Source: Buddleja alternifolia
Lineage: Eukaryota > Streptophyta > Magnoliopsida > Lamiales > Scrophulariaceae
DNA: 64,000 nt
Reading direction: 5' to 3'
Assembly: GCA_019426215.1 (NCBI GenBank)
Contig: CM033397.1
Coordinates: forward strand, 29,700,480-29,764,479
Positions 25,866 through 57,834 of this stretch are shown here, in pieces. The translations under genes were made by a program, and so were the position numbers. How positions within the stretch are numbered: position 1 is the first letter of the stretch; each line of letters begins with the position of its first letter. The notes beneath the pieces were generated by a model. That model ran no database searches, was not told the DNA's origin, and saw nothing but the letters and a program-made list of their open reading frames with translations.

Positions 25866-25870
25866 AAATT

Positions 25871-27065: not shown

Positions 27066-27472
27066 ATTTGTAATATTTTAAAGTTATATTATACAATTTA
27101 TTGGCCATACGTCATTGATGTGTACCTACACGTCATTTCAATAGTCACTTATATGTAAAATACTTCAATTTTATATTAAAATACGCCTATTGTAACTATA
27201 ATACGTCGTTCTAAAGGTAAACATATGTTAGTTGAAGTAAGTCAGGTTTCGCTGTATTATAATAAGTCAATTTACATGTAAACATATGTCAATTGACGTA
27301 AACCATGGACCCTAAACCGTAAAACCCTAAACCCTAAACCATAACCCTAAACCCTAAACCATGAACCATAACCATAAATCCTAAATCCAAAACCCTAAAC
27401 GCATTATTTTTTTTAAGGAATGATTGTATATATTTGTAATATTTTAAAGTTATATTGTACAATTTATTGGAG
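27066..27472. repeat. 40-base direct repeat flanking telomere-like CCCTAAA tracts
   Basis: 'ATTTGTAATATTTTAAAG...ATTTATTGG' occurs at 27066-27104 and again at 27434-27472. Between them, 27308-27400 holds degenerate CCCTAAA/CCATAAC units, similar to the plant telomere repeat but too short and imperfect to be a telomere. Confidence 0.55.
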
Positions 27473-27519
27473 AATAATAGCAGCTGAATCGATAAAGGTA
27501 CATATCTTTCACAAACATA

Positions 27520-27922
27520 GGCTATGTTTGGTTATGTTTTGGGATGATATTTTGGTCAGAATTTTTGGTGAGAAATTTATGGGGACACGTGCGTGTTTGA
27601 TGAGATTGTGTTTGGTTTTATTTGGGAGTTGGTTTTTGGGTGGTTTTTTTTGTGAGATAATGTTGGTTTTGTTTTCAGAGGGAATTAAAGTTACTGTAAC
27701 AGTCAAATCATGAAACTTTTGTTTGTTAGAGAGGAGAGAGAAGAGAGAGAGCACATAGAGAGGAGTGTAGGGACAAAGTAGGTGTAGAAAAATGGAAAAT
27801 AATTATTATGTTTTTTTTGGACAAAAAAGTAGTGTATTTTTTACCAAATATTTTGTGAACCAAACATGGTTTGGTGAGAATTTTGAACCAAATATGGTAC
27901 GAAAACATAACCAAACATTGCC
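27520..27922. mobile_element. MITE with GGCTATGTTTGGTT ends
   Basis: The left end GGCTATGTTTGGTTATGTTTT matches the reverse complement of the right end (GGCAATGTTTGGTTATGTTTT), flanked by ATA on both sides. It is 403 bases with no transposase. A 3-base duplication and this type of end would fit PIF/Harbinger-derived MITEs, but the superfamily is uncertain. Related copies are at 58492-58883 and 60937-61290. Confidence 0.65.
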
Positions 27923-28089
27923 ATAATGTGTGTAAACACTACTATTAGTGATCACAAGTGTAAATTGTTTGAGTTTGTAGTTTTGAAATACTCATTCACA
28001 TGCTTATACTTGGGCTGTTATATATATTTATAATGTCACGTAGGTTGCATTAAACAACATACTTGGAGCAAAATACGCAATATACGAAT

Positions 28090-28620
28090 CAATTGATGTA
28101 CGTATGTGTCAATTGATGTATGTATACACATCCATTGACTGTGTATAATATCAATTGGCATATGTCTACACATCAATTGATGTATGTCTACAAATCATTT
28201 GACGTATGTATGCATATCAATTGACGTATGGCTACACATCATTTGACGTATGTATACATATCTATTGACGTATGTATACCTATCAATCGACGTATGCCTA
28301 CAAGACAAATGATGTATTTATAGTCGTTAATGACGTATGCATACATATCATTTGATGTAAGAATATATATCAATAGACGTAAGGATTATATCAATTAACG
28401 TATGTATTCAAATCAATTGACGTATGTCTACACATCAATTGACGTATGTATTCAAATCATTGATGTATGTCTACACATCAATTGACGTATGTTTACACAT
28501 CATTTGACGTATGTATACAATTTATTGATGTATGGCTGCATATAATTGACGTATGATTATATTTTAAGTGACGTATAGATTATATTAAATGAGGTATAGA
28601 TACAATAAAAAATGATGTAT
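28090..28620. repeat. Degenerate 21-22-base minisatellite (ATCAATTGACGTATGTATACAC)
   Basis: About 20 tandem units with variable sequence, each containing a near-palindromic TCAATTGA core followed by CGTATGT(A/C)TACA. Diverged single units also occur at 27080-27300 and 55560-55640. It lies downstream of the catalytic exon of the split Ulp1 pseudogene. Confidence 0.75.
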
Positions 28621-28989
28621 TGTTCATATAATAAAAATGTACCATACAACATCATCTAATACATCATTAATTGCGTTGTCAACTATGCCCTCTGTCTCAG
28701 AATAACTGCGGCCATACATGCCCGGAAAGAATCTAACCCAACGCTCTGGTGATACAACCAAAATGACTCAAAATCTACGGCAAAACACTTTGCCCGCATG
28801 CACACAAAAACCCCCACAATCCGCCCCCCTCTTGTTGGCGGCAATCCTTATTTTTTTCCACGGTTCTCTCGCCAATATCATAACCCAACTTGTTTTTCAG
28901 ATAACCGATGGAAAAACTAGCTGCAAAAAGGAATTTAATATTTTATTATTTTTTTAAATACTCATTTCATACACAGAAATCCTCTATGA

Positions 28990-29420
28990 GGACACAGAAA
29001 AGCGCCCCAATATGGTGCTTGTGGGACACTTTCAGTTTTTAGGGCACTTAAGATAAGTGTTCGCGTAGTTTGGCGTCGCATAAAGCTTTGGGGCATTTAA
29101 AGCGCCCCAACATCAGGATATAACGGGACATATATATGTGTCCCAATATGGCTTCTTGAGGCACTTAATTGTGTCCCTATGTTAAATTCAAATTCATGTA
29201 ATAAATCCTTGTGAAGGCACTTATATGTGTCTTAAGATTACTTATTTGTGTCGTTTAAATGTTTACAGCAAACTGTAATGGGACACTTAAAAGTGTTGTT
29301 TGTAGCTTGAGACACATTTATGTGCCCCATAACAATTAGAAAACAAACCACATATTCTTTTTGGAGACACTTTTTATGCACTAACAGGTTTTTAGGACAC
29401 TTAAAATTGCTATAACAAAC
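28990..29420. repeat. Subterminal repeats of CACTA element 1
   Basis: Irregular copies of (G)GGACAC(T)T and of GCGCCCCAA(T/C)AT in both orientations. Equivalent motifs are near the right end at 54500-54620. In CACTA elements such motifs bind the element's DNA-binding protein. Confidence 0.65.
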
Positions 29421-32400
29421 GTCCTCTAGATGATAATTCCCAACCTTCCAATACTCATACATTTAAAAATCAATATATCCCAAAGTCATATTGTGGAACA
29501 CCATTTAACTAAAAGCATATAAATACTTAAAAGTAATATAGATCAAAAGCAACAAAAATATTTACTGGATGGAATTCTATGAATACAATATCCATTTATC
29601 AATTCATATTCCACAACAAAAGTAAGACCCTGTATCAATAATAAAAAAAAAAACGACAATTCTTCTTAGGACAACAAAAATATCAAAGAAATCCATCATC
29701 AGAAGTTCTATATAACAAGAGTTGATGTTTCATTTGAATAAAACATGCCCAAACACATACTCAAGTTTCACAAAATAATCATCTAAGATTGCATCAATCT
29801 CATTTTCATCAAAACCAACCTGCCATAAAAATACATCACATTCAAAAATGAAATCCAAGAGACAGATGGTCCAAAAGAAATGGTTTCTGTAAATAGTAAA
29901 CATTTGTTACACAATAACTTATATCGAATCTTGAATACAATATTCATATGAATAGGAAAAGATTATCAACATTTTCCCTTATGAACAAAGCAGCTGTGCT
30001 CATTTAGTAAAAAAAATTAGTTGATACTAGATAAGCTCTTCTATCTCTCCCTTTGTCTTCAACCAAAAGGCTAAACTTTTAACTAAAAAGATAAGAAAAT
30101 ATCGCAAATATATCAATAGAAAGATCCACGAATATGCTCAAATTCCCACATATTAATTAGACAAGCTAACGAGTTTTTTGTAACACGAGTTTATACATAC
30201 CAAAGATAAAGGCCAAGCAACGGGTGCTCCAAGTGCATCTCAATTGTCCGTATATGGTCATAAGGTTTGAACAAGCATGCATCCCTTTTTTTGAGATTAA
30301 ACTATTATCTCGCACCACTCAGGCCTCAAATCTTCACCATTTACTCTAATAGAGTTCATTCTCATAGCCACTTGCGACCGTCATTATATTCCCCAGGCTT
30401 TTTAAACAACATAAGAACGAACCTGAAATTTAAAGATTGTTTATGGATTCATTAATTAAATACGTTTCACATTATTAAAAAATAGGTCAATTAGACCAAT
30501 CAAAAGAAGAAGAAAGTTAAGAGGAATTACTTGGAGTAACAGAATGTAATTACCTTGAGCTAATGAGTCTAAACACTAAAAGTGTACTTGGTGCACAATA
30601 TGGCTACAAACAAAATAAATGTATAAATGCTTAACACGGTGAACCCATAAATAAATAAAATATGTTTAACCAAAAAAATAAAAAAAAAAGTTTTTGTAGG
30701 AGCAAACTAGAGACCTAGATGATATCCTCTGTTTCTTTTTTTAACTACTCTCTCTCAAGTTTCTAAAGAGATTTCATGTGAAAAAATTACCCAAGTGTAA
30801 AATGCCCCACTTAGAAAAAGATAAAGCAACTTTCATTTTTCTCAATTTGTGTTAAAGTGCTTATAAAGTTATTGTCACTGATAAAATCTAGAATCCTTCT
30901 CGTAAAGTTACTCCACTTCTCCCAAAAAAATTAGAAATACCAAACTCACATAAGTTAACTGTAAGCATTTGATTGGGATAACATGCATATCAAAAGAAAA
31001 TTCAAACTCCAGAAGAATATTGAATATCACAGGAAAAAAAACACGAACTGACATCCACCATAACAAAGTTTCTAAGAAAATGACTTATTTATCAAGTCCT
31101 ATCAGTTCTTAATTATCAATACCTAGCAAGTATACACCCAAGTTCTGTCAATTAATAATATTGTGATTTAGCAACTTAAGAAGGTGGAGAAGTTTAATGA
31201 GTGAATCATGCATATATTAGTCACTCTAGTATCATTTCCAGGCTCCTTCCCTTTTAATTTCACCATTTCATATACTAATTAGCTGTTTTTCTTTCCCCGA
31301 CTTAGATTAAGGAAATTATACAAGTAATGACTTAAGAATTGACCAATACTAAGCAAAAAACCAGTAGCAGAACATATATCCCTGATATATCTATAAGTTC
31401 ACAACACAAATTCTTTTCTTGTATGACTTGATAAGTATGATGACAACGTCGGGTATTCTGAAGCTTACCGACTACCAGATGTTAGATCCTCACAAGGTTT
31501 CTCAAAATTAGCTAATCAATATTTTTTAGTGTAAGAATTAAAGCATATATAGATACATATATTATTACGAGTATACTACGCAAAAAAGTAATTCATACAC
31601 AGATGAACTATCAATAAGAAATGCACACTCAACGCACTCTACAAGTAATCTAACATACAATATGCACTCTACATAAACGCGAGAACTATGAATAGCTATG
31701 CACTCTACAAGTAATCTAACATACAATATGTTTTTCAAAAGCTCACCTCTTGCGCACATTCCAATTTCAGAAAATGAAGATGGACCATTGCTCATGGGTG
31801 CTGTTTTCATTTTGAAAAGGTTAAATTTTCAGATCAAGTTCTGCAAAATAATTAGTATACAGTAAGCACTCTCATGAGACAACACAAACACGTTGAGTTA
31901 CCAGAAATACAAACTTAGATTGTTTATCATAAATCGAAAAACAAAAACCACACAATAATACATAAATCATTAGTTAAAAGGTCAAACAAGAAGAATATAT
32001 AAAGCGGCAGTAACATACCTAAAATTGTATTTGAATCACTTCAAGAAAATTTTTAGAAATAAGAGAATTAACATTTTTAAATTTTTCTAAGTGCACTTAA
32101 AGTAACTAAGCAATATAGATTGAAAATCCAATGGATATCAATTTTATACAAAATTACTACTTTATCAATCGGTGTATGGACTTTTAAAGAAACCTACAGG
32201 TGGAGTAAAAAAATCTTACCCATGAAATCTATGACCGACAAGCAGCTATGTCAGGAGGTAGAGCAAATTTCAGTAAAAAACTCGATACACATGTTATTTG
32301 TAACTAATAAAGCATTAAACCACAAAAATTTTGAGATTGAAAGGTACAAGAGGCTAGTAGAGATAGATGCAGAAGGATTTTCAAACATTTAATAAACCCT

Positions 32401-32558
32401 AGGATTCAACTAAAAATGAAATTGGGAAAAAGAAGATAGATAGAGAGAGAGAGATTCGAAGAGAGAGGGAATGAAAGAGAAAGAGAGAAAGGGGGATGTA
32501 CTGATTAAATCTAAGATGAAAATTGTCTTGGCTTCCTTGAGGAAGAGGGTCCCCGTGC
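29421..32558. other. AT-rich interior of CACTA element 1, no clear gene
   Basis: No long frame. On the minus strand a CT-rich leader (32550-32400) and a short exon-like piece (about 31810-31750, ending in an AG|GTGAGC donor) hint at remains of a gene, but I cannot link them into a product. A 37-base segment 'ATGCACTCTAC...ACATACAATATG' is repeated near 31635 and 31700. Confidence 0.4.
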
Positions 32559-32620
32559 GGAAGTTAGCAATTTTAGACCCTAATTGCATGTGTGTTGCAA
32601 TATTAGACCCTTTATGTTTG
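32559..32620 (+). repeat. Left terminal inverted repeat of the MULE
   Basis: It pairs with 54312-54372 (diverged). The clearest shared blocks are GGAAGTTA, TAGACCC, AATTGCAT and ATTAGACC. Confidence 0.65.
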
Positions 32621-33149
32621 GGATTTTCTTTATTATTTTTTTAATAGTGAGAATGCTATTTGGTGTGAAGTGCCCAGGATACCCTCCAGTAAAAATCCCC
32701 TCCAATTGAAGAAACGTTGAAGCGTTTCTTGTTTGCCTTTTATTTTTTTTTTTGATTTAATGTATTATCTAATTACATTTAAGCCCTTTGAGCCAAAATA
32801 ATTGTAAAAGTGTGTGACAACTTTAGAAAGCGTACTTCTAAAACCTTCCAATTTAACATTTGGCTGGGAAGTTGAAAGTCTGAACGGGCAAAAATCAAGG
32901 GGGGGAGAGACGAGAAAGGGAAAAAGCACAAGAACCATACCGGCCGATATTTATACAGTATATCGGAGGAAAGAAGCCAAGTAAATCTTGTATAATTGTT
33001 CATAAACATCCTCCTCCTACCTCTTCTTCATTTCCCCAAGGTAATTTGAATTTTGAAGCCACATTCGCAATTCTAGGGTTTTTGTGAAACTATTTTAATT
33101 TTGTAATTTTGATTGTTAAATCATTATTGTTTAGTCCCATTATCGATCA

Positions 33150-36100
33150 ATGGCTGCTTCCTCCTCATCGGGTACCAAACACCAACGTGAAGTGGCTTCA
33201 GCCGGCCCTGGAACTTCCTCTACACCCCTGTAAGTGAACTAGCTTCGAAGTATTTATATTTTTAGCACAATTTATAAATGTAGTTTTTTTGGGTTGTGTG
33301 TGATGTATTATTGACTGTGTTTTAGGTTTTATGGTTGGTAATTGTTGATTTTTGTTGGATAACCTGATTTTTTGTATGGTATATAAGTTTAGTCGTTAAA
33401 TTTGACAAATGTTTTTGTTGAAGCGTGTTGTTTCAGGGCAATTAGGAAGTATATCTTGATATAGGGTTATATCAGTTTGTGTTTATAAGTAATTTAATTG
33501 AATTTTGTCTTAGGTTTCTGACCCAAACGACATCCCTCGACCCACTTTTACATTGAGTCCCGATAAATTTAACTTGAAGTGTAAAGTTGGCAGCAAATGC
33601 AAATTGAAAGAGGATCTTAAGTATATTGAAGAGTGTTTAAGTGACCATCCTGATGGTATAATGTGGTTTCAAAACTCTCAATTTGCCCCATTATTCGACG
33701 TTGCTTCGGACATGGACATGGTGTTAACTCCTCTGTGGATGCTTCTAACACGAATAGTGGATTCTCCAGACCATTCTGAAATTTGGTTTGTTGTAAATGG
33801 CATTCCTATTCGTTACTCTTTGTTGGAGCATGCAATTATGAGCGGGTTGAATTGCTCCCGGTATCCTGCAGCTTCAAAGGTTGTGGAGGATGATAATTTT
33901 AGTCGTAGATACCTTAGCCCTAAAGCCACCGTTAAAATTCTTGGGGAACAACTTAAGAAGCGTGTGATTTGTGGAGAAGTAGACCGTTCTAGAACTCGTC
34001 GAAAGTCTTCGAAGAAGGCTGTGAAGAAGGTGGCGAGTAGTTCCAGTGACAAAGCATTAGAGATCCTTCCATCCGACAAGTTAAAGCTTGCGTTATTGTA
34101 TTTGTTGGTTTCTGTTTTTTTTATCCCGCCACATGATGATTCACCAATTGATTCCCGTCTTCTTGCAATTGTTGATGACCTTGAGTTTGCAAAAACTTAT
34201 CCATGGGGTAGGCTTTCTTATTCTGTTATGATGGACCAATTGAAAACCTTGGACTTGAAGAAAAAATTGGTTGCAGAAAATCCACAGTGCAACTTTCGTT
34301 GTTTTGTTCTCCCACTTATGGTAAATTTGGTTTTTATCTTTCATTGTTAATTGTCGACTTACTGTTATGTGAATATTTGATAATATCTTTTTTGTTCCGA
34401 TGCTAGCTTCTTTCTTTTGAGTGTATACCCGTACTCTCACCAATGATTGGACGGTTGAGGGAGAATATGCCCGGACAATTGCCGAGAATGTGCAAGTGGA
34501 CCACTAAACTTCTTCACAAGAGACAATATCCCACCTTGTCTCAAATTCTTATGTTGGTTGGAAACACCCAGGTTAGTATTTTCATTGCCAATTTGAAATG
34601 TTAAAATCTCAAACCTTATTTGCGTATCAATCTTCGCCTTTTATAATGAATTGTATTAATTCTATTATATTTATTTGTTTATTTGTTTGATAGGATATTA
34701 AAAGCCTACTTCAAGCCACGCCGGAGGAACTGGAAACAGACCACATGCAAAGCTTTGCTCCTTTTGATCATGCCAACAGCAAGGTCCATGACCCCACCAC
34801 CAAATTATGGACTGAAATACTCGAGAAAGGAGGTAGAATTGTATTTGATGACATTTTCCGAATAGATTTGGAATCTCGACATTCCATTCTTCCAGTGAGT
34901 AAAATTGCAACCATAATCGACGATGAAGGTAGAAGACGTGAAAAGGAAAATGTTGAATGTGAGGCAGGCAAAGTTGCACAGGACAGTGTTCCTGGTGTTT
35001 CATCCATTCCCATGAATACCAATGATATGGCTATGAAAGTCCTTCGTGAGTTAATAGCAAAGGGTGATTTGTTATCACAAAAGATTGATTTGTTATCACA
35101 AAACAGTATTGGTATGAGTGAAAGGTTAGAAAAGGTTGAAAGTGTGTTAAAAGACCTTTCAACAAAGGTTGGAGGTGATGAGGATGATGATGATGGGGTT
35201 CTTGGTGAGGATGAAGGGGTCGGCGGTGATAAGGATGATTTTGTTGTTGAGGATGTGGATGAAGGAATTGGTGGGGATGCAGGTGAAGGATTTGGTGAGG
35301 ATAAAGTTGATGGTTTAGCCATGGTCCTTTTTAATCATGGTGGAGTGGTTGTAGGTCCTGATCCCATGGTAGATGTAGTTGTACAAGAAGAATCTGAGTT
35401 TTATTTGAAGAGGATGCCAAAGAAATCCAAGTACCAAAAATCTCCATTTACCAATCCAAATGCAAGGAAGAAGAAGAAGAAGAAAGTACGTAAGACGTAA
35501 TATGGCATTATGTGTAATGGTTTTATTAGTTAGTTTGGTTTGATGACTGTGTTTGTTTGTAGTACTACGGGTACTGTGTTGGTATACAATATTAGTAATG
35601 TTATTCAGTATTTTTATTTTTGTTAGTACTAGTACTTGTATTAGTTTTAGTATTAGTATTTGTAATATTGTATTTGCTGCACTGTGTTTGTTTATAGTAT
35701 TATGTGTACTGTATTTGTATACAATATTAGTATTAGTAATTTTATTCAGTATTAGTATTTCTGTCAGTACTAGTACTTGTATTAGTATTAGTATTTGTTT
35801 TTGATAATATTCCACTGTGTGACTTCATCTTTTTTTTCGAACCCCAGGTGGAGTCGGGCCCAAATATTGGTACAGAACCGGTGGAGAATGATTTGGCTGG
35901 GGATTTTTTTGTGCCTCTTACTCCAGAAGAAAAAGATGTTGTTTCTGAAGCCTTGACCCGTTCAAGTTCTGAAAAAGTGTTGGTGACTCACTCTAATATT
36001 CAGATTACCGGCGAACAGTTACGGTGTTTTCTGGCAAGAGGTTGGCTCAACTCTGATGTGATTAATGTGTATTTTCACTTGTTGAAAGAAAAAAAGAGGA

Positions 36101-36612
36101 GGGAGCCAACCAAATTTTTAAAGTGCCACTATTTTAACATTTTCTTTTACACCGCTTTGGTTCGTAATGGCGTATATGATTTCAAAACTGTCGAGGATTG
36201 GACCACCCCGACCAATCTGGGATATCACCTCCTTGATTGTGAAAAAATTTTTGTGCCTATTCACAAACCCGATCATTGGTGTTTAGCTATTATCAACAAA
36301 AAGGAACAAAAGCTCCAATATCTTGATTCTGATGGTGGACAAGATGAAGAAGTTTTGAAATTTCTTGCTATGTATTTTGTTGATGAGGTGAAGCAGAAGA
36401 GTGGAGAAACCATTGATCTGAGTTTGTGGAATCACGAGTACACCAAGAACCTTCCTCGACAAGAAAATAACTACGACTGTGGAATGTTCATGATCAAGTA
36501 CGCCGACTTTTGTAGTAGTTCGGCTGACATTGGTCTTTGTTTTGGACAGGCTGACATGTCATATTTTAGGCAGAGGGTAGTTAAGGAGATTTTGAACTTG
36601 AGAGTAGATTGA
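33150..36612 (+). CDS. DUF1985-Ulp1 (C48) cysteine protease-like gene of the MULE
   Basis: Exons, with consensus borders and matching phase, are 33514-34320, 34407-34571, 34694-35485 and 35848-36612, together 843 open codons. The N-terminal part is a DUF1985 domain (about 33560-34320, ending 'DDLEFAKTYPWGRLSY'), and an acidic Gly/Asp-rich linker lies at 35170-35320. The C-terminal Ulp1 fold has His in 'DHWCLAI' (about 36273), Asp in 'YLDSDGG' (about 36322), Gln in 'RQENNYDC' and Cys in 'YDCGMF' (36478). All catalytic residues are thus present. Ulp1 enzymes remove SUMO; the substrate of TE-borne copies is unknown. A possible first exon, ATG 33150 to 33229 with a GTAAGT donor, does not join exon 33514 in phase, so the real start is unresolved. 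Confidence 0.8.
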
Positions 36613-37389
36613 TGAACAATGAAATTGCTATTAACTTGTAGATACTTTTAATGTATTGTATCAGATTGGCATGCAGTATAACTAGTATTATCCGTATACT
36701 GGCCAGATTGGTACCAAGTATAACTAGTATATTCCTTAAAATTTATTGCTTTGTACTATATTTTTGTTAACTTGTAATTCACATTTAGCATTAGTGTGAT
36801 AGATTTTTTTGGACGGTATTTAAAAACTTATTGGCCATTAGTGGATAGATTTTTTTGTTTGGTAAAAAAGTAAGATGAAATTTATTGCATTATTGAAGTG
36901 GGTTGTTCTCAATCCCATCCATCCCATCTATTTATTCAATACATGGTAGTATAATAGTTATACTAGCTATACTAGTGGTCATTCAAAACAGTATAATAAA
37001 TGTGGGGAAGTTATCACAATGGTTTGGGTGAGAGGAAGTTTGAACACCTCACACCACACGTTCACCCTCCCACCATATTAGTGTATGCTTCAGTTTTTGA
37101 CAGCTGTTAGAGGAGAGGTTAATTTATTAAACTCCTTCCCCCCACTTCCCCTGCCGTTTCCCCTTCCTCTCCTCACTTATGAAATCTGCGTAGCTCTAAA
37201 AAAACATTTTCACCATCTCTCTTCTCTATGAACTCATCCGAAGCTTCACTCTCTCTCACTTTCTACCTTTCTTCCTTCCTCACTTATTTTACCCATCATT
37301 TTTCACTCATCCAAAGCTTCATTCACTCTCAGTCATCCGAAGCTTCACTCACTATCACTTTCTACCTTTATTTATTTAGGAAATCTACC
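36613..37389 (+). other. Ulp1 3' region and F-box leader
   Basis: The first 400 bases are AT-rich with GTATAACTAGTAT repeats. From about 37140 a CT-rich leader holds three imperfect copies of 'CATCCGAAGCTTCACTC' (37231, 37307, 37335), and 'TTATTTAG' at 37373-37380 could be a splice acceptor just before the F-box ATG. The F-box promoter is probably here. Confidence 0.45.
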
Positions 37390-37974
37390 ATGGATATTGA
37401 AGATAGATTAAGTGTGCTTCCCCCTGATGTGATTTTTCACATTATGGATCAGTTATCAAAACTATCAGTGGTGGAGGCATCAAGGTTGGGATTTATATCA
37501 AAACATTTCCAACATCTTTGGTACTCAATCCCTAAACTAGAGTTCAATCATGGCGCTTTTTTACATCATAATATGTTTTTGTATAGTGGGTTACATTTTT
37601 CAGATTTTGTTAATCGCACGGTTGAACAACATAACAATAGTGTTGTTCATACTTTGATACTTGATTTTGGTAGGGGGGAGGGAGGTGGAGACCGTATTAG
37701 GGAAGATTGGGTATTATTTGGTGTTGATCACCATGTTCGAAAACTCAAAGTAGTTGGTCGTTTATTAAACTCTCTCCCTAGCACCCTATTTTACTCACAC
37801 ACTTTTGTTGATCTTAAACTATCTCTGCCTAAGTATGTTATTATGTGGGAGGATGGAATCTTACTGCCAAATTTGAAAAAATTAGTATTGAAGCGTGTAG
37901 TAATGATTGACAATAGGTTTGGCCTTAAGAATTCAAAATGGTTTCCCACATTAGAGGAGTTCACTACCACAAAA

Positions 37975-38235
37975 AAGTCCTATTACAGCGCACCTATGAC
38001 AGCGGTTTTGAAAACTGCTGTAATAGGTGGCATTCGGTTCGGACCTATGACAGCGGTTCGAGCCAAAACGCTGTCATAGGTTTCAGAAAAAAAAAAAAAA
38101 TTTTGAATGTGGCAGCGGTTCGGCCAGAACCGCTGCCAAAAAGCGCACGTATGGCAGCGGTTCGGCCGAACCGCTGCCAGAAGTGTACTTTGTGGCAGCG
38201 GTTCTAGCCGAACCGTTGGCACAAGGGCCAGGTTT
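37975..38235. repeat. Left subterminal palindromes of CACTA element 2
   Basis: Repeated units CCTAT(T/G)ACAGCGG and GGCAGCGGTTC(G/T)G occur in both orientations, so that each pair can fold (for example 'GCAGCGGTTCGGCC...GAACCGCTGCC'). Confidence 0.8.
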
Positions 38236-38280
38236 TCTACAACCCGGCCCTCCTCACTCTCACTCTCACTATCACTAGAT

Positions 38281-38660
38281 CTCACCCACTCACTCTCTCT
38301 CTCTCTCTCTCTCTCAACTCTCTCACCACCACCACCACCACCACCACCATCACCACCACCACCACCATCGCGACCACCACCGTCCGCCGCCCCCCTCTCT
38401 TTTTCTCTCTCTATCTCTAGATATCTACCCCTCTCTCTCGGTTTTTCTCTCTCTCTCTCTCTCTCGCAACTCTCTCACCACCACCACCACCACCACCACC
38501 ACCATCACCACCACCACCACCACCACCATCGCGACCACCACCGTCCGCCGCCCCCCTCCCTTTTTCTCTCTCTATCTCTAGATATCTACCTCTCTCTCTC
38601 GGTTTTTCTCTCTCTCTCTTTCTCTTTCTACCACCGTCCGCCGCCGTCACTCCGGTAATT
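38281..38660. repeat. (CT)n-(CCA)n block duplicated with a 161-base period
   Basis: A unit of (CT)n, CAACTCTCTCA, (CCA)n, then CGACCACCACCGTCCGCCG and TCTAGATATCTACC appears twice in tandem (the CGACCACCAC marker at 38371 and 38532), plus a partial third. The frame through it encodes a His run that is an artefact of the CCA repeat. Confidence 0.8.
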
Positions 38661-46647: not shown

Positions 46648-46904
46648 AAATTAGGTAATTTAGTTTTTGTACATTGTGACTTGTTATAAATTGAGATTTG
46701 ATTTATTGTATTTCGTAAGGTCATTAGTAATTTAATTAGTTAATTGTACATTTTGTTGGAGATTAAAGATGGTAATATTGAAGTTTGGGGTGATGTTTGT
46801 TTATGTTGAATATGTTTTGTTGTTAGTTGAAATTTGTTGATTGGATCATTGCATATTATTGTACAGGCACTCTCATGACAGTGCAATAAATAATTAAAAA
46901 AAAA

Positions 46905-47205
46905 ACAGGAAAAAAAAACAGCGGTTCTGCAGAACCGCTGCCACAGTTCTCACCTGTGGCAGCGGTTCTGGAAAACCGCTGCCACAGTTCTCACCTGTGG
47001 CAGCGGTTTTGGGAGAACCGCTGCCACAGGTCCGTTATTTATTTTTATTTTTTTGGTTTTTTCACAGCGGTGTTCAGGGAACCGCTGTCATAGGTAGACC
47101 TATTACAGCGGTTTTGTAACCGCTGTCATAGGTCCACCCCTATAACAGCGGTTAAAACCGCTGCCATAGGCCCAAAAAAACCGCTGTCATAGGTCATTTT
47201 TGTAG
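46905..47205. repeat. Right subterminal palindromes of CACTA element 2
   Basis: Units CTGTGGCAGCGGTT and AACCGCTG(C/T)CA(C/T)AG alternate in both orientations up to the terminus, mirroring the left end. Confidence 0.8.
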
Positions 47206-48284
47206 TAGTGGTTACAACTACTTAGTTGTGATTTTGAAAATATTCATGAATTTTTGGGTAATTTCCCCTGTTTGAAAATAATAAAAATGGCTTTCAACCA
47301 AGGCCAGAGCAATATCAACACTCGGCTATCGATCCCAAATTTAGATTGGTTGGTTATTTTAATGACCCAAAATCAGGGAGTGTCGGGGCATATGCAACTG
47401 TCCAGAGCTCGTACCTTGAAATGGATATTACGTGGTGATGCCATGGACTTTGAAAGCAATTGCACTGATAACCTTTTCCATCGAGAGGCTGTTAAAATGG
47501 TTAAAGAATTATTCCTCACCGATGACGCTCATGTGTCGATGGTTTTCGGACAGGTATACCTCTCATTGGTTTTGATATCTGTGTGCATTAAATCTATGAA
47601 ATTGTTGTTGATTTTACGTTTTTGGTACTTTGGTAGGTTTTGGCCAGCGTGGCTGGTCTACATCGTCATGTGTCGTCTTGTTATTTTGTCGACATGTTCA
47701 GCTTAAATATGACATGTTTGAACAAGATCGATCATCTCGCAATGACACTGGTGATGATTAGTAGATGTCCAAACTTGGAAACATTTTCAATTAATTTGGT
47801 GGTAATATTCTACATTTTATGATTTGTTGATTATAACATGGTTAATTAACACTTTGATATCGGATATTCCATCAATAAAATGGTTTCTGTTTTTTACTTG
47901 TTTTGTAGCCGAGTGACATGTTGGTAAACAATCCCACAACGGTTGGTCAATATGTAGAAGAGTGGAATTTGGGTGAGTTGAGATTGGACAATTTGGACGT
48001 GGTGAGCGTAACAAATTTCACGGGCACTGAATCCGAGATGAGCTACGTTATGCACGTGTTATTGCACGCATCTCAGTTGCAGAGGGTAAATATTGTGTGC
48101 AACGACGTTTTTGCTGCTGACCGACATATATGTCAGCAAAAAATTAGGACGATAAGGTTGTTTCCAAGATTATCGGAAAATGTACGGCTTTGTTTCTCGT
48201 TTATGTAATATATATACTGAAAATATTGCTATTGTATACCCAATTTGACATTCATTTGATGGTAGAATATTGCTATCCAGTATC

Positions 48285-48500
48285 CAGAATGGTAGTTATA
48301 CCGTACGAATATTGACCCGGTATATGCCGTATACTTGGCAGAATGATAGATATACCGGACGAATGGTTATCCGGTATAGTCAGTATACCATGCTGAATGA
48401 TAGGTATACCGGACGAATATTGATCCGGTATATTCAGTATACTAGGCAGATTAGAATAGGTATACCGGACGAATATTGATCCGGTATATGCAGTATACTT
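48285..48500. repeat. About 60-base minisatellite with ATACCGGACGAAT...ATCCGGTAT
   Basis: About 3.5 units, each with a GTATACCGG / CCGGTATA inverted pair and a GCAGTATAC(T/C) spacer. Single units recur at 49011 and 49565. It lies between the F-box and GRF genes. Confidence 0.8.
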
Positions 48501-49563
48501 GGCAAATTGGAAAAACAATTGGAAATGAATCCATCGCCAATTCACATATGATTGGTTGAAATAGAACAGTGCTAAAACATTTAAATTGCTTCAAATAATA
48601 ATATGTGAATGGATTACACCACAATTGGCGGCAGCAATACACATGGTTTAGGGTATCGAGTTTTAGGGTTTAGGGTATCGATCAGAGGTAATGTGAACCT
48701 AAATTTTGTGATGTTTTAATAAAATATACCGTGTGCAACAATGCATATTTGAATGTGGAACAATTGATGTATTTCATATATGCTTCTACAACTAATTAAT
48801 GTTAATAGTTTCCCATACCTAGTAATAACATGTTTATATGTTGTACTTAGTATACTAGGCAGATTGGAAAAACAATTGGAAGTGAATCCATCGCCAAATG
48901 ACATATGATTGGTTGAAATAGAACAGAGCTAAAACATTTGAATTAATGTTTAGGATATATTTATAGATTAAGCTGCAATAAGAATTTAATTTAATAGGTC
49001 CAAAAAAAATAGGTATACCGGACGAATATTGACCCGGTATATGCAGTATACTTGGCAAATTGGAAAAACAATTGGAAATGAATCCATCGCCAATTCACAT
49101 ATGATTGGTTGAAATAGAACAGTGCTAAAACATTTAAATTGCTTCAAATAATAATATGTGAATGGATTACACCACAATTGGCGGCAGCAATACACATGGT
49201 TTAGGGTATCGAGTTTTAGGGTATAGGGTATCCATCAGAGGTAATGTGAACCTAAATTTTGTGATGTTTTAATAAAATATACCGTGTGCAACAATGCATA
49301 TTTGAATGTGGAACAATTGATGTATTTCATATATGCTTCTACAACTAATTAATGTTAATAGTTTCCCATACCTAGTAATAACATGTTTATATGTTGTACT
49401 TAGTATACTAGGCAGATTCGAAAAACAATTGGAAGTGAATCCATCGCCAAATGACATATGATTGGTTGAAATAGAACAGAGCTAAAACATTTGAATTAAT
49501 GTTTAGGATATATTTATAGATTAAGCTGCAATAAGAATTTAATTTAATAGGTCCAAAAAGAAT
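48458..49563. repeat. 553-base tandem duplication
   Basis: 48458-49010 and 49011-49563 are near-identical, joined at copies of the GTATACCGG unit. A third unit starts at 49564 but is cut short. No gene in it. Confidence 0.85.
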
Positions 49564-49930
49564 AGGTATAGCGGACGAATATTGACCCGGTATATGCAGT
49601 ATACTTGGCAGAATGATAGATATACCGGACGAATGGTTATCCGGTGTAGTCAGTATACTAGGCAGAATGGTGAAGGCGGGAAATCCGAAAAAGTTTGAAT
49701 AAAAAAGCGAGAAAAGAAGAAAAGCAGGTTTCTTATATTGTTCCCAGCATCTAGATTATTCCTATTATTCATTATCCAATATCCACATCCAACATTCCAT
49801 TTTCCACAATATCCCTCTCTCTCCACTTCCCCCCTCTCTCTCTCTCTTCTCTTCGCTCTTCACTATTTACTGTCTCTCTCGTCTCTCTCCCTCTCCTACC
49901 TACCTCGTCTCGGTATCAAATTACTGAATC

Positions 49931-50410
49931 ATGGAGGGATTTTGGTCACCTACTTGTAAGTGCGGGCGAGGCAGAATGATTATTCACTGTGCCGGACCGG
50001 ATACAAAAAATCCAGGCCGCTACTTTTATCGATGTCCCGGCTGGAAAAGACATACAGATTGTTATCTTTGGTGCGATGAATACCATGACGAAAATCCTCA
50101 TATACCACAGCCAAGTTTTATGGACAATAACGTCCGCCCAACGCAGACAGAGCAAGGTGCTTCGTCTAGTAAGGACAAGGGTTCCGCCACTGCTTGCCCG
50201 AGCTTTGATTCAGCCATTGACCGGTCAACGGAAAAGAATATATGTATGACTGTTAGATTTGGCAAGCCGCTGCAAACTGAATTGAGCCTAACTAGTAGGG
50301 GGTTCTCCCTAATGTGTTGTTTCATAATCGTTGCCTTGATTCTGCTTGCAATTTTCATATTTGTGGCTGGTCTATCAGTTGGACTGATCATTCATCAGTC
50401 CAGTATTTGA
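49931..50410 (+). CDS. GRF zinc-finger protein with a C-terminal membrane segment
   Basis: 159 residues. The N-terminus carries a GRF-type zinc finger, with 'CKCGRG', then 'GRYFYRCP' and 'CYLWCDEY' (residues about 10-50). A Ser/Thr-rich stretch (60-110) follows, then a hydrophobic helix (about residues 126-152). The ATG at 49931 follows a CT-rich leader. GRF fingers bind single-stranded DNA or RNA in other proteins; short plant proteins with this finger plus a membrane tail are often linked to transposons. The role here is unknown. Confidence 0.75.
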   Translation: MEGFWSPTCKCGRGRMIIHCAGPDTKNPGRYFYRCPGWKRHTDCYLWCDEYHDENPHIPQPSFMDNNVRPTQTEQGASSSKDKGSATACPSFDSAIDRSTEKNICMTVRFGKPLQTELSLTSRGFSLMCCFIIVALILLAIFIFVAGLSVGLIIHQSSI

Positions 50411-50837
50411 GTGTAAAACCAGTATTTTATATGTATGTATATTGTTCAGATTATTCAGATTCGCCTGCCTAATTCTGCCACATGCTTCCCCGCATAACCA
50501 TAACTTGCAAAAAATCTCCAATTTAACAGTTCAACATCAAGACACATGCAAACGAGCATTTACAGCACAAAAATGAATAGCCAGAAATTATGCACACAAA
50601 AAAAAAAGCAAAACTAATTTAAAGCAAGCTTGCTATTTTATTCAGTACAACCTTATATGATTGAAAAAACACAACATTATATGATTGAAAAAATACAACA
50701 TTATAGTTCCCACCAGTTGGATTGGAGAAACAATCATTGATTAATCCATCCTAGTTTTATACCAACTATTAATCAAATTATTAAAAAATAAGGAAATAAA
50801 AAATCATACATCTCTATCTCTCCATAGCTCAGTTTAT
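50411..50837. other. Shared 3' region of the GRF and transposase genes
   Basis: Convergent genes. AT-rich, no frame of note. A 24-base 'ACA(A/C)(C)TTATATGATTGAAAAA' unit is doubled near 50660-50690. Confidence 0.45.
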
Positions 50838-53405
50838 TTAGAACTTTCTTGGATCTTTTTGTCTCTTTGACTTCTTCCGAACCTTCTGTCCACCTGCCTC
50901 CATTCTAACAGACTGAGGCACTCCAGGCCTTTTCGTGTAGTCCGGAGGTACCACTCGAATGGCCTTTACTTCATCAGGTATGATCCAAGTGGATTGATTA
51001 GGAACGGGGTATATGGTTCGGGAATACGCCAATGCCCATAATTCCTTCAAGTAGTACTTCGAGCATAAAGAGACCAATTCTGCGTCATCACCAGAAAATG
51101 CAGCAAGCGCGTGCTCACAAGGGAGATGGTCAATGTCGAAAACTCGGAAACTACATTTTTTCTTCTGGAGGTCAACAAAGAAAATTTCTTCCTGATCCAA
51201 AGCCCCCGTGCGATTGACCATATACTCACCAGCAAACTTATTAAGTTCTTTAGCTATATAGAACTGGCACTCGCGTTTCCTTGCATGCAATGTGCTTTCC
51301 GCTTCTGGAGTTAGGAATTGTGACGATCCACCCTCACAAGATTCCATGCGGTGCTTATTGAACCACCGACATATCAAGTTCACAATCTCATCCATCAAAA
51401 GAATCAACGGAAATGATCGAGCACCAACCAAGGCAGCATTAATGGACTCAACTCCGTTGGAAGTCAAAATGTTGTATCGTGAACATTCAAAGTAGCACCT
51501 GGCCCAACGCTCCTTTATAAGGAGTAGATCTTGCATATACTCGTGAAACTTGATGCATGTACGAGGTTGCCTTCTTGTTAGGTCATCAAAACATTTTTCG
51601 AACTCTTGAACAGTGTATGCTTCAGCATAAGCCGTGAACTTCCCCAACACGCTTTTGCGATGTTCATTTTTCTGTTTACCCCTGTCGGTATTAACGCGAG
51701 TCCTAATATTTTGAGAAATATGATAAGCACAAAATCCATGTGAAGCCTTGGGATACACTATCGGAACTGTATTTATGATGCTTCCGTTTCTATCTGAAAT
51801 GATGACCAAATCTTCAGAATCGGGTATCACCTCGCTAAGCTTGTCCAAGAACCAAGACCATGATGCATCGCATTCACTTTTAACTACACCAAAAGCAAGA
51901 GGATATTGATGTTTGTTGCCGTCTTGTGCAGTACAAACTAATAATACACCTTTATACTTGGTCTTTAAATGTGTGCCGTCAATAACGATTACCTTCCTCA
52001 TGGCCTTAAATCCTTCGATGCATGCTCCCAATGCAAAGAATAAAGACACAAACTTGCCATCCACATCTGTACATATGTCAGTAACTGTACCGGGATTCAC
52101 CACCTTCAGCATATACAAATAACTCGGAAGAAAAGCATAACTTTCCTCCGGGTCACCCCTGATAGTACTTCTCGCTAGATGTTTACCCCGCAGCGCTTTG
52201 GAGTAAGAAATATGAAGGCCCTGATTTACCATCATTTGAACTATTGTCTTTGGCGACGGTGTATCATACTGACATGGGAAAGTCTTTAACAACATGTTAC
52301 AAACCTGCGATGCGCTACTTTTTTCTGCTTTAAACCGCACTGAAGGTGAGCATGTATGGATCTTACTATGAATGCGCAAGGAGAAAACATCTAACCCTCC
52401 GGTCTTTCCAGCACGCAATCTCCACTTGCATTCCGGATCCCTACACTTAAAAGAGAATATCTTTGTGTTTGACTTAGATCTTTTAAAATTGAAAGTTGTT
52501 TTCAACGAAGCATTCAAAACCACGTCGAACACCTCATCTTTGCTTCTGAATTCATGTCCAATAGGCAGATCTATACCATCCTCAAAACTATAGGTCTCAA
52601 CAACCTCACCAGGAATAGGTTCACTAACCGTAGCTCGAAGAATTGGAATTGAGTCTTCCCTTGAGAAACAGAGAGGTGTACTGGAAGCATGTATTGGACT
52701 TGAGTCATCCCTTGAGAAATAGAAAGGTGAACTGGAAGCATGTATTGGACTTGAGGGAGCGGCAGGAGTAGATTGGAGATTTTCAACATTTGGAGTCGAA
52801 ATGGGAGTTGATTCTAAATTTTCATTGCTTGGAGGATTTTGTTTGATAGGAGTTGGGGAAGAGGCCATAGATATGGGCGGAGACATCGGCTTATCTAAAA
52901 CAAAAGCCGGCCTACCTGGGGCAGATGTATAGTCGTTAACCACATTCACATCCACATCCACATAAGAACCTGAGTCCTCACTATCAGAATCCACTCCATC
53001 TATATCAACACCATTACCATCATCAAACCAATTGTGTTCAACGGGAACCCTCTTTTTAACAAGCTCAACATGGAGAATGCTTCTACACTTGGATACACGA
53101 CATTGGTCCATAAGATAACATTTTACATCAAAATCGGTCAAAATATATTTAGGGTTTAAACCTTTACAGGACAAAGGCGTATAACTCAATTTGATTTCAA
53201 AGTCATTCCGGTTAAAAGGAGCCTTTTCAAATATGAAATCCTGAAGCTTTGAAAATGTAATCGCGTTAAGATCATCTCCCTCTTCTCCGATTATTGCATT
53301 GTGCATTTCATAATTATTCCTTGAAATCCATTCATATGCTCCTAATTCTCCGTCTTTCTTCTGCCACTCTCCATCGTATCGGTAGTACAACAAATAGTCT
53401 GACAT
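50838..53405 (-). CDS. MULE transposase (MuDR-like), open over 855 residues
   Basis: A single uninterrupted minus-strand frame. The N-terminal 120 residues are uncharacterised, followed by a Ser/Pro-rich linker (about 180-260). A MuDR DNA-binding domain follows (about 275-360, 'CRDPECKWRLRAGK'), then the MULE catalytic domain. Its D is in 'VIDGTHLK' (about residue 475), its D in 'IISDRN' (about 537) and its E in 'SNGVESINAAL' (about 652). A SWIM zinc-finger-like segment lies near residues 745-770 ('PCEHALAAF'), though its first half has only one clear Cys. It ends in a basic tail. It sits next to the right terminal repeat with its start facing that end. The intact frame suggests recent activity. 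Confidence 0.9.
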   Translation of the reverse strand: MSDYLLYYRYDGEWQKKDGELGAYEWISRNNYEMHNAIIGEEGDDLNAITFSKLQDFIFEKAPFNRNDFEIKLSYTPLSCKGLNPKYILTDFDVKCYLMDQCRVSKCRSILHVELVKKRVPVEHNWFDDGNGVDIDGVDSDSEDSGSYVDVDVNVVNDYTSAPGRPAFVLDKPMSPPISMASSPTPIKQNPPSNENLESTPISTPNVENLQSTPAAPSSPIHASSSPFYFSRDDSSPIHASSTPLCFSREDSIPILRATVSEPIPGEVVETYSFEDGIDLPIGHEFRSKDEVFDVVLNASLKTTFNFKRSKSNTKIFSFKCRDPECKWRLRAGKTGGLDVFSLRIHSKIHTCSPSVRFKAEKSSASQVCNMLLKTFPCQYDTPSPKTIVQMMVNQGLHISYSKALRGKHLARSTIRGDPEESYAFLPSYLYMLKVVNPGTVTDICTDVDGKFVSLFFALGACIEGFKAMRKVIVIDGTHLKTKYKGVLLVCTAQDGNKHQYPLAFGVVKSECDASWSWFLDKLSEVIPDSEDLVIISDRNGSIINTVPIVYPKASHGFCAYHISQNIRTRVNTDRGKQKNEHRKSVLGKFTAYAEAYTVQEFEKCFDDLTRRQPRTCIKFHEYMQDLLLIKERWARCYFECSRYNILTSNGVESINAALVGARSFPLILLMDEIVNLICRWFNKHRMESCEGGSSQFLTPEAESTLHARKRECQFYIAKELNKFAGEYMVNRTGALDQEEIFFVDLQKKKCSFRVFDIDHLPCEHALAAFSGDDAELVSLCSKYYLKELWALAYSRTIYPVPNQSTWIIPDEVKAIRVVPPDYTKRPGVPQSVRMEAGGQKVRKKSKRQKDPRKF

Positions 53406-54311
53406 TTTCCTAAAATGAACAACAACAAAAAAATTACTGCTATTAAACTATTTATGATCGAACTATGCACCACCAGTATACAGAAGGATATTCCTTTTAA
53501 CGAGTAAACACATTATTCTTCAACCTGCCTACATGGGATTGCCTACTGCACAACAACAAACAACACAAATAATTTTCAAAACTATTTATGATTCAATTAT
53601 ACACCACTACCATTATACAGAGAGGGCTATTCCTATTATTTAACGAGGATTCTTCAACCTCTCTACATTGCCCACATGACAATTACATTGCCTACCGCAC
53701 AACAGTAGAATTATTCTTCGAAATCAACCACAAAATACAATCCTACACACACATTCACAATCATGAACAAGAAGAAGCCGAAATTGGTTCAAAAAACTCA
53801 TGAAAAACGAAATTGAAATAATTACCAAGAATTCGGGTGGATTAAACTCCAAATGCACCTCGAACAACTACAAACAATCGTCTTCCGAAGTCGATGAAAA
53901 CAATGTCGCAAGTTTTCTTTGGTTAATACCAATCAGGGAACAATTGTACATGATTTCGAATCAATTGGGAAAAAAGATTTGGGCCAAGCAAGAACCCTAA
54001 ATTTGGACTGAATTGGGGGAAATATGCTTCAGCAGAAACTCAGCACTTCAGCCCTCAGCAGCGCGGCGGGAATGGGAGGGAAATAGATGATTTTTCTTTT
54101 ATTTTTATTAATTTAATTGAATGTAAGGATATTTTAGACATTTCATAAATCACTAATTTATCTTTTCTTTTGATACAATTTTGTTAGTAAGGGCAATTTA
54201 GAACATTCACTTGAATGAATATTCTTTTAATTTAAAACAAATGAGTTAGTTAGGGTATTTTAGAACTTTCAATTGAGTGGGTCCCACAGGGGTCTAAAAT
54301 TGAGGTGGTTT
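53406..54311 (-). promoter_or_regulatory. Upstream region of the transposase, adjoining the right MULE end
   Basis: About 0.9 kb without a gene. Two copies of an 'ACTATTTATGAT(C/T)...TATACAGA(A/G)(A/G)G' segment occur near 53450 and 53590. The transposase promoter should lie here, since MULE promoters often adjoin or overlap the terminal repeat. No unambiguous TATA box could be assigned. Confidence 0.4.
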
Positions 54312-54372
54312 TTTAAAAAGGTCTAATTTTGTAGTGTGATATGCAATTGGGGTCTATTTTTGTTAACTTCCC
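54312..54372 (-). repeat. Right terminal inverted repeat of the MULE
   Basis: It pairs with 32559-32620, reading GGAAGTTAACAAAAATAGACC on the minus strand. Confidence 0.65.
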
Positions 54373-55439
54373 CTGTCTGTGAGAGAGAGATGAATCCGCC
54401 CTAGTCCAACTAGTAAAGGAACAAAAAAAATTGAGGGAGAGGGAATAAAATAAAAGTGCCAAGAGCAAAATATTCAGAAATTTTCAGTGCTCCTGGTGCG
54501 CTAAATTTCTATTTGAGACAAGTGCCTCGAGAAGTTTAATTATTAGGGCAGAAATTAATAAGTGTCCCAATAATTTATAATTGAGGCACTTGTGCAAAAG
54601 CATCTCTTAAAAAATGTCCTATAATATGTATTTTATTGTAGTGTTTAAAATAAAATGTAAACGAACTCACAATGAGTATTGCTACTATAGAATTCTTTGG
54701 GGTCCAGACAGAATTCATGTGTATGAACTTTTTCTTCTTCGTATCAATAACCAGGAGTGTCCAATGAAATTCGTCAACAATTGGAATCATGATATATCGG
54801 CACGTGTTCATGACGTCCAGTGTCAACTTATGTATTGATTTGGCTTAATGTACAATCAAGTTATCAGCAACATCTACATACTGATCTTGACGGACGAAAG
54901 TGCTTAGTTTGTGAAGTTTCAGAAGGACTTCAGTCTATCAAGTGTTAATTTGTTAGTATTTACAATCTAACAAAACCCCAACATGTATGATTATTTTTTT
55001 AGATTTTTCTACATTGAAACCTGAAAATAAGAGAGAGAGAGTAGAAAAAGCGGTGGCCAACAGTTGTTGAAACGACATTGTTACACAGAATGTCCACGTA
55101 GCAATTCACCAAAGACGAGGATAGTGCCTCCCGAACAATAGATCACAAAACTCTTTGTGACAAAGATCAAGTACAAGTGCATCCCAAACAGGCACACTGC
55201 AAATTGAGATTTATCATTATTAGTAGATAGATCAATTAACATAAAAAAAGATAAGTAATATATTTAGTATTTGTACTCCAGCATGTCTCCACAAATATAA
55301 GCATCAATGATCCAACGATCATTGTCACTTAGGTCGGCCCGCCCTTTGTAGTCCATCCTCCCTTTGTACTGCTCAAGGGTATTTTTACTGTCAACTTCAT
55401 GAAATGATATATAATTGTCGTTGACTTCAATTGAAATCT

Positions 55440-55740
55440 GTACATACATGTCGTAGTCTTAGATGTAGTATGTTTTCGTGTTAAATGCAGTAAATATTTG
55501 CATATGAGTTCCTAATGAATGCAGTATACAAAGTCATGTTTAATTTAGTATGGCTCCCTTATAAATGACGTACGAAATCGGACTAACCGAAGTATGATTT
55601 CTTACTCATTGACGTATGGAATACTTTAATTGCAGTATGTAAATTCATGTTTTACTACGGTAGTGATTTGTCACAAATAAGCAAGCATAATACAGAAAGT
55701 ATTAATTCTTACTTCTTAGTAATAACAATTTGTTTAATAA
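55440..55740. other. Intron-like spacer with diverged GACGTATG units
   Basis: It lies between pieces of the split Ulp1 pseudogene. It contains 'ATTGACGTATGG', 'AATGACGTACGA' and 'GCAGTATGTAAATTCATG', similar to the minisatellite at 28090-28620 on the other side of CACTA element 1. Confidence 0.5.
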
Positions 55741-57615
55741 TGCATGCAGTATATCAATGGTTCACCTCTTCACACCCGGTACGTTGATGTGTCTTCAAGT
55801 CACCAACATCTTCTTCACATTTCTTTTCCTCTTTCTATATCTCTTTCCCTTCAGCCATCTTTTTCTCTTCCTCTCTCTCTCTCTCTGTGTCTCTCTCTCT
55901 GCGTCTTCATATTTCTTTTTTTTCCCTCTCTCTCTTTCCCTTCCTCTCTCTCTGCCTCTTCTTTCTCGTCTTCATTCTCTTTCATCACACCAGATTTGCC
56001 AACATTCTCCTCATCTGTTTTTCTTTTCTTCAACTGAATAAGGGTGTCAATTAGGGCATCATCATCTAAGTCATTGTCCTCAGTCATGATTTTTCTTGCC
56101 TTACGTAAAAGAACCCTTTTGCCCAGTCGTTCAATTACCTTTTTTCTTTCCTCTTGTTTCAAAGCCGAAATATGATCAACATCAATCCGTGTTTCAATTG
56201 GCATTATAAATTTTTTCTCATCTTTGAAAGTATACATCTCAATAATCTGGTAAGAACATAAAAGTTCAAACTTGCAATGGATTTTTAAGGAAGATTAAAC
56301 ATGGTAAACACGCCAATTACCTCATCTGGAGTAAGTGCTCTAAATTGTCGCGCGACAGGATCAATGTCGTTGGAGATGATTGTCCTCCCCCACTTAAAAA
56401 GTCGTGGGACGGAGCGCACCACGTGTTGAGTCCCCATGGAGCGCACATGCTCAATAACCCAAGCCTAGAATGAAGCAAAATCAAAACGAGTATTTAGATT
56501 TATGCAATTTAATACGATTTCCAAAAAACATACTATATTTAACTGCAATACAGAACTAATACAACTAACCATAAGCCCAATTGTACATCCATTGATGTAT
56601 TTCATTTGCCCCAGTTTCGTAGTATACTCGCAAATTTGCTTCATCAAGAACGAGTGAATGGCGCACCCCCAAGCATACTCCCAGAGGTATTCCCAATCAT
56701 CCACGTAAGCAAGCAAAAATCCCGGAGTACGAAAGTTATTGCAAGAAAATAATATAGTATTACAACAAAAAGAACATACATCCTAACAAAATCCTCTATA
56801 TCCGCCTTCGATTTTCTAGAGACTAACTCATACAATTTCATAACAATATTATCCCGCACCACTTCACTCAATTTCCGTTAAAATGTTTACTTAATGTTTT
56901 GGACTCCACCAAATTCAGTTCCAAGTCAACATACTGAACTAACTCGTGGAGCCCCATCACAATGGAGAATTCGGACACGAGGAATGGAACTTCAATGCCG
57001 TTACCAAAAACAAATGCCTTACTCTCCCAACGGAATGTCCGCAATAGTGCCCCAACTCGAGCTAAGTTATGGGACATATTTGAAATTTTCATGTATAAGA
57101 AGAACGGAGTCTTCTTTATTACTTCTCGGTGCTTTTCCGACATCAATCGAACTAATTCTTCCATTACTTTACGGAATGTATTCGGGTGGCACCGTGACAA
57201 AACATCGTACTCCTTCCTATGATGTTTTTCCGCCATTTAGACCCTGCAAGGATCAACTAACATAAATGACTAGGGTAAATAAATAGATAAAGCTGAAATT
57301 CATAAATAGACAAAACTGAAATTAACTAAATTCGATTCACCTACACTCACAAATCCAAAATTAGAAGTGGAAATCGAATACCCAGGTGGTGGTGGTGTGA
57401 GCGACGACAGTGGTATGAGGCTTCCAAGTGAAAAATTAAAAATTTAGGGAACAAACTTCGGAGGAAATTGAATACCCAGGCGACGACGGCAAGGTGGAAA
57501 TCGATTTTGGGAGAAATTTTCGGCAGAAATTTGAGAAGACAGTAAAGAAGGACACACCGTGTTGAGAAGAAGAGAACACACAGGTTGAAGGCGGGAAAAT
57601 ACTGATACACTTATG

Positions 57616-57735
57616 GGATCATGTAATTTTTTGTTTAAGTTAAGGGCAATTTTGTCTTTTCACAGGGGTTAGGGAGGATCATGTAATTTTTTGTTCAAAT
57701 TAAGGGCAATTTTGTCTTTTCAAAGGGCTAGGACA
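57616..57735. repeat. 60-base tandem duplication
   Basis: GGATCATGTAATTTTTTGTT and what follows occur at 57616 and 57676. They lie between the pseudogene start and a MULE-like end at about 57834 (minus strand GGGAAAATTGGTGG). Confidence 0.8.
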
Positions 57736-57834
57736 AATTTTAATTATGAATTAGGGAGTGTAGAGTTATAAATTAGAAATAGGGACTGATTTTGAACTTT
57801 GAATAGGATTTGAAGATTTTCCACCAATTTTCCC

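Follow-up and report, generated by a model that had tools for sequence, protein, structure and literature searches.

Mutator-like elements (MULEs) that carry a Ulp1-type peptidase gene are known from Arabidopsis, as the KAONASHI or KI-MULEs, and from families in melon, rice and grapevine. These are multi-copy elements with a MURA-type transposase and an oppositely oriented C48 gene, and the KI-MULEs are described as lacking terminal inverted repeats (PMC2528002, PMC13317346). Coding MULEs of maize and rice carry other transposons (PMC3903597), and the Ac macrotransposons of maize consist of two elements and the DNA between them, with an outer duplication (PMC9910405). Here we describe a nest of transposons in Buddleja alternifolia, in which a MULE-like element (MULE A) and a MULE (MULE B) alternate with two CACTA-type elements (CACTA 1 and CACTA 2). 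The nest lies in a window of 64,000 nt, C8:29700480-29764479, of the 854-Mb assembly GCA_019426215.1 (contig CM033397.1). An original prediction, made from the letters of the window, had read positions 27066-57834 as an ordered series of a Ulp1-like gene, a first CACTA element, a MULE, an F-box exon and a second CACTA element, each interrupted by the next.

Positions 26000-60000 were read directly and the termini of the elements were located by script. Other copies of every unit were sought in the same genome, domains were called with Pfam profiles, and a related stretch on C2 was compared with the window by blastn and MAFFT. The genome searches scored the best candidates only (18 for query 47150-54500 and 40 for the other queries), and the copy counts given below are lower bounds.

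An ordered nest of insertions

We consider it very probable that the nest arose in a plant chromosome by ordinary transposon insertions, one upon another; the protein relatives and the content of the window are those of a plant. In brief, MULE A would have received a miniature inverted-repeat transposable element (MITE), a long terminal repeat (LTR) retrotransposon and, within an intron of the Ulp1-type gene that MULE A carries, CACTA 1, three insertions that we leave unordered among themselves. MULE B, with a transposase of its own, would then have entered CACTA 1, and CACTA 2 would have come last, into an exon of the F-box-like gene of MULE B. The order and edges that had been predicted are borne out by empty sites in the same genome for CACTA 2, MULE B and CACTA 1. 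Empty sites were also found for the MITE (six places) and for the LTR (in copy L022). The features are listed in Table 1.

Table 1. Features of the nest in the window (positions counted from the first base of the window)
Feature	Position	Strand	Basis and remarks
LTR retrotransposon end in MULE A (..CTAACA / ATTTG)	24917..27065	-	its left part gives way to other sequence at 24916
MULE A left arm	27066..28967	-	cut at left by LTR; holds 3' exon side of Ulp1-type gene; repeated in genome
MITE (GGCTATGTTTGG..) in MULE A	27520..27922		403 bp, ATA on both sides
CACTA 1 (short), MULE B within	28968..54643		target TTT; ends CATACACAG..TTGTAGTG; empty sites
MULE B (Ulp1-bearing MULE with transposase)	32558..54372		common ends; site unoccupied in two relatives of CACTA 1; Pfam MULE
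DUF1985 + Peptidase_C48 (Ulp1) gene, in exons	33514..36612	+	Pfam DUF1985 1.9e-21, Peptidase_C48 1.8e-32
F-box/FBD-like gene	37390-37961 + 47214-47553, 47637-47801, 47909-48208	+	split by CACTA 2
CACTA 2	37962..47210	+	target GTT; tnp2-type frames spread over four open frames
GRF zinc-finger protein gene	49931..50410	+	Pfam Zn_ribbon_GRF 27.4 bits, cut-off 25.9
MURA-type transposase gene, open	50838..53405	-	Pfam MULE 2.7e-21
MULE A right arm	54644..57834	-	other exons of Ulp1-type gene; right terminus 57834 (..CCAATTTTCCC); shared right ends

CACTA 2, the innermost insertion, is flanked by GTT at 37959-37961 and 47211-47213. Its termini, CACTACCAC..GTAGTAGTG, are the CACTA..TAGTG ends that, with a 3-bp duplication, characterize the CACTA superfamily. 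It encodes a tnp2-type transposase (Pfam Transposase_21, 206 bits) and has arrays of TGGCAGCGGTT as subterminal repeats at both ends. In all 39 other scored copies of MULE B the match to query 36600-38100 ends at 37961, and 14 matches to query 47150-54500 begin again at 47211, the first base past CACTA 2, indicating that none of these scored copies holds the element. The 39 other scored copies of CACTA 2 itself are all 99% identical to the copy in the window, and by this measure the family apparently went through a very recent burst. The scores of these copies are nearly equal (5853-5865 bits), and the copy in the window stands slightly apart within the family.

MULE B, 12,563 bp long without CACTA 2, ends in diverged inverted termini of approximately 55 bp, in agreement with the diverged termini predicted for it. 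The left end lies at 32559 in 27 of 35 other left ends, and each of the 17 other copies scored at the right end has a match that stops 0-7 bases from 54372, in 11 cases exactly there. Two relatives of CACTA 1, on C11 and C4, are continuous across the site of MULE B, with the left and right flanks aligning at one place. The transposase of MULE B is of the MURA type seen in Mutator-like elements, with the Pfam domains MULE, DBD_Tnp_Mut and SWIM. A 9-bp target duplication, as made by such elements, is present at the level of the family; among 11 copies examined it is 9/9 in five, 8/9 in one, and partial or absent in five. In 3 of the 14 right flanks of MULE B copies that were seen, a related MULE has its end within the first 20 bp (L031, L036 and C2 at L025; the 14 are 12 including the window plus two on C2), and these flanks look as if MULE B often lands next to MULE ends.

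CACTA 1 is flanked by TTT at 28965-28967 and 54644-54646. Both predicted target duplications, TTT here and GTT for CACTA 2, are thus present on the two sides of their elements. The 3' end TTGTAGTG and the TTT pair fit the CACTA superfamily; the 5' end is altered and reads CATACACAG. The element yielded no transposase. The insertion site is an intron, approximately 71 bp long without the insert, of the minus-strand Ulp1-type gene. As had been claimed, donor and acceptor stand on opposite sides of the insert (GTGAGT at 54670 and TTTTTGCAG ending at 28921). When the right arm of MULE A was used as query, 28 of 45 other listed matches started exactly at 54644. The insert is missing from all 11 distinct MULE A places read, with the surroundings intact in 10 of them and a small deletion beside the site in the remaining one, L018. 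The original prediction had proposed to look in relatives for the Ulp1 intron without CACTA 1 and the MULE without CACTA 2; among other copies in this genome, such sites exist in 11 of 11 places and in 39 of 39 scored copies, respectively.

The outermost element

The right end of MULE A agrees in 10 of 11 other aligned loci, L018 being shorter. A copy at approximately C2:10907371-10912655 has an inverted left end of 137 bp at 69% identity and a 7/9 duplication. These comparisons suggest that the outermost unit is a MULE-like element. The Ulp1-like gene that had been placed outermost is an interrupted C48-type gene as predicted (Peptidase_C48 1.1e-6 for 54578-54844), but it is no ordinary gene, since it is cargo of the repeated MULE A, for which inverted ends were seen in the one copy examined. 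On the other side of CACTA 1 the putative cysteine-box motif is kept in no single frame, and for that reason we read the gene as decayed. Among the frames of MULE A that were run against Pfam, the C48 domain was the only one found.

The Ulp1-type unit and the F-box exon could also be host genes that were struck by transposons, since splice signals occur in both, as do domains known from families of host genes. Both recur genome-wide inside element boundaries, however, the one in MULE A and the other in MULE B, and this copy pattern contradicts host genes; we hold that explanation to be extremely improbable and keep to a nest of transposons with their cargo.

Position 27066, where the predicted interval began, is a real junction, but it is the join between the LTR and MULE A and no element terminus, and copy L022 continues past it. 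Two insertions in MULE A had been overlooked, the MITE at 27520-27922 and the LTR ending at 27065. From reading frames on C2 we presume that the LTR retrotransposon is of the Ty3/gypsy type. The MITE is missing at six places (L004-L008 and L023) and present in L022 (the same as L003), and pieces of it occur elsewhere in the genome at approximately 94% identity. The similarity between the window and copy L022 (C8:29.795-29.800 Mb) extends into the right flank, with 93.7% over 57835-60565, and MULE A was therefore probably duplicated locally before CACTA 1 came.

MULE A further contains 22-bp satellite-like repeats (CAATTGACGTATG) at 28081-28620, and L022 and L023 carry repeats of this type in inverted orientation as well, over approximately 2 kb. 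At the left of the window, positions 1-10173 together with L027 form a tandem array of LTR type, in which 7.7 kb recur at 99%, the period being approximately 5.9 kb; the array reaches 3.4 kb left of the window.

Weighing the order and the assembly

Identities within the families broadly follow the nesting: 85-94% for MULE A (right part, 45 other listed matches), 82-90% for the relatives of CACTA 1, 94-99% for MULE B (query 36600-38100) and 99% for CACTA 2. Some points weigh against the stack of insertions as we have drawn it. The relatives of CACTA 1 are no more identical than the copies of MULE A, so that identity orders these two only by way of the nesting. The 9-bp flanks of MULE B in the window, GTCCCCGTG and CTGTCTGTG, agree at 5/9 positions and differ at 4/9 although the element is young. 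The class of MULE A comes from a single copy (7/9 duplication, 69% inverted end), and scoring was restricted to the best candidates of each search. What the sequences show is the family membership of the elements, their edges and target duplications, and the empty sites; we infer that each element was moved by a transposase of its own superfamily, and any date beyond the nesting order would be of the same standing.

An assembly break inside the region, named beforehand as an outcome that would speak against the nest, was looked for. The window contains no N, and the inner junctions fall exactly at the ends of elements and have matching empty sites. A retrotransposon frame on C2 runs across the base equivalent to 24917, where the window turns to unrelated sequence, which could point to part of the nest being an assembly artefact. 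This suspicious junction, 24916/24917, lies 2.1 kb outside the nest, and is either an allelic difference or a misjoin, the former accounting for it equally well. We consider an artefact within the nest highly improbable.

Taken together, the original prediction is partly supported. What it observed was right and unusually exact, and its interpretation has to be amended for the outermost level and the F-box exon.

Genes carried by MULE B

Within the common ends of MULE B lie both a Peptidase_C48 domain at 35740-36609 on the plus strand and a MULE transposase domain at 50841-53447 on the minus strand. MULE B thus holds a C48 gene and a transposase in one element, as KI-type MULEs do. Of 11 other loci, 8 have the transposase without a stop or frameshift, and the pooled ratio of non-synonymous to synonymous changes per site (pN/pS) is 0.55 (91 pairs). 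Its best named relatives are from Brassicaceae, at 40-49%.

The F-box-like frame picks up in frame past CACTA 2, as predicted, and with two further introns comprises 458 codons. Profile scores are weak, with 22.2 bits for FBD (cut-off 22) and 15.9 bits for F-box (cut-off 20.5). Of 17 other MULE B copies found via the transposase side, 15 match the 3' side of this gene at least in part. The exon is hence a component of MULE B, and not the separate nesting level it had been taken for. It should be noted that query 36600-38100 itself contained the F-box exon and is no test of its presence in the copies. The predicted 458-aa protein has zero homologs at E <= 1e-3 among 5267 candidates. Exon 3 gave no sign of purifying selection in a comparison of its 300 bp, for which 6 of 13 copies could be used; the pooled pN/pS is 1.7 on few changes, and the differences are nearly all non-synonymous.

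We propose, tentatively and as an unlikely reading, that MULE B is a recently active family of Ulp1-bearing MULEs in which a divergent F-box/FBD-like gene belongs to the constant gene set, together with the C48 and GRF genes. If true, MULE B would encode both an adaptor of a ubiquitin ligase and a protease of the Ulp1 type, which might serve to counter host silencing or to control the element's own transposase. Among the top matches listed, in one case the best 10 of 566, no paper reports an F-box gene in MULEs by its title or the start of its abstract, and the term F-box has 0 occurrences in PMC2528002 and PMC13317346. An F-box-like gene in a Ulp1-bearing MULE is the part of this locus that a specialist might pursue.

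Just behind the F-box-like gene, positions 48293-49669 are occupied by tandem repeats, with a 553-bp unit at 99% and shorter units of the GGTATA type. The number of repeats differs among the copies of MULE B.

An apparent macrotransposon on C2

The stretch C2:21855343-21895218, as assembled, begins with a first copy of MULE B and closes with a second; in between are part of a retrotransposon and the left portions of MULE A and of CACTA 1. Read literally, the left half of the nest would also have moved to C2 as a macrotransposon of 39.9 kb, bounded by the left end of one MULE B copy and the right end of the other, with a 9-bp duplication. The outer ends are indeed proper MULE B ends, both are flanked by ATCCAGTCC (9/9, as against only 3/9 for the inner flanks), and the MULE B family makes 9-bp duplications. 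Three observations stand against this. A run of 100 N lies between the two MULE B copies (L026, C2:21869455-21869554). The differences between C2 and the window from 24917 to approximately 33 kb are mostly one-base insertions, of a type seen in raw reads. Here blastn opened 115 gaps, with 7 mismatches, over 7746 columns, and MAFFT, in eight 1-kb bins over 24917-32916, gave 56 mismatches with 86 insertion and 14 deletion openings; past approximately 34 kb insertions nearly cease and substitutions appear.

The third observation is that the MULE B copies on C2 switch partners along their length. At 32558-33745 the second copy differs from the window at 3/1187 positions (0.25%), and the first copy by 2.0%. 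At 33746-48194 the second copy instead resembles the first (12/5175 differences, 0.23%), and the window differs by 0.9%. From 49160 the window and both C2 copies all differ, by 1.1-1.9% (second copy 94/5162 and 59/5204). The switch from 12/5175 to 94/5162 has a p value of 2.3e-17, for a tract picked after seeing the data.

The outer duplication is thus 9/9, and the contiguity of the stretch is not credible. A macrotransposition, first suggested by the perfect duplication, was set aside on the N run, the indel signature and the copy switch, and we regard it as very unlikely. The simplest reading of these three observations is a chimeric contig: most likely a single real MULE B lies between the two ATCCAGTCC and was doubled by a change of copy within the repeat during assembly. 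A real duplication with later gene conversion is a possible alternative. A second candidate, that the stretch is a locus-specific nest without CACTA 2, was also dropped; at the position of CACTA 2 its match is with the other MULE B copy of C2, and it therefore counts as one more empty paralog only.

A distance of 3 bp separates the end of the first C2 copy from the terminus of a different element, which is multi-copy and has short inverted ends (L026:6931-7454). No report of macrotransposons of MULEs was recognized by title or abstract start among the matches listed. The case illustrates that a chimeric contig over a repeat of 12-13 kb can mimic macrotransposition, even with a perfect target duplication.

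Comparison with described elements

CACTA-type ends, a 3-bp duplication and a tnp2 transposase connect CACTA 2 with the CACTA (En/Spm) elements. CACTA 1 has the 3-bp duplication and a 3' end of this type, and departs from these elements in its changed 5' end, CATACACAG, and in that no transposase was found. In its assembled form the C2 locus shares its outline with the Ac macrotransposons of maize, but it is most likely an assembly chimera.

MULE B resembles the Ulp1-bearing MULEs of Arabidopsis, melon, rice and grapevine in its multiple copies and in its MURA-type transposase with an oppositely oriented C48 gene. It is unlike the KI-MULEs in its short, diverged inverted ends, its GRF gene and its F-box/FBD-like gene.

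Nests of this sort are common in plant genomes, and the present one is a clean example and no new kind of system. Compared with the nested coding MULEs of maize and rice, it has unfilled sites elsewhere in its own genome for each of several levels. It gives a well-resolved ladder of relative ages for DNA transposons in one genome, with CACTA 2 as the youngest.

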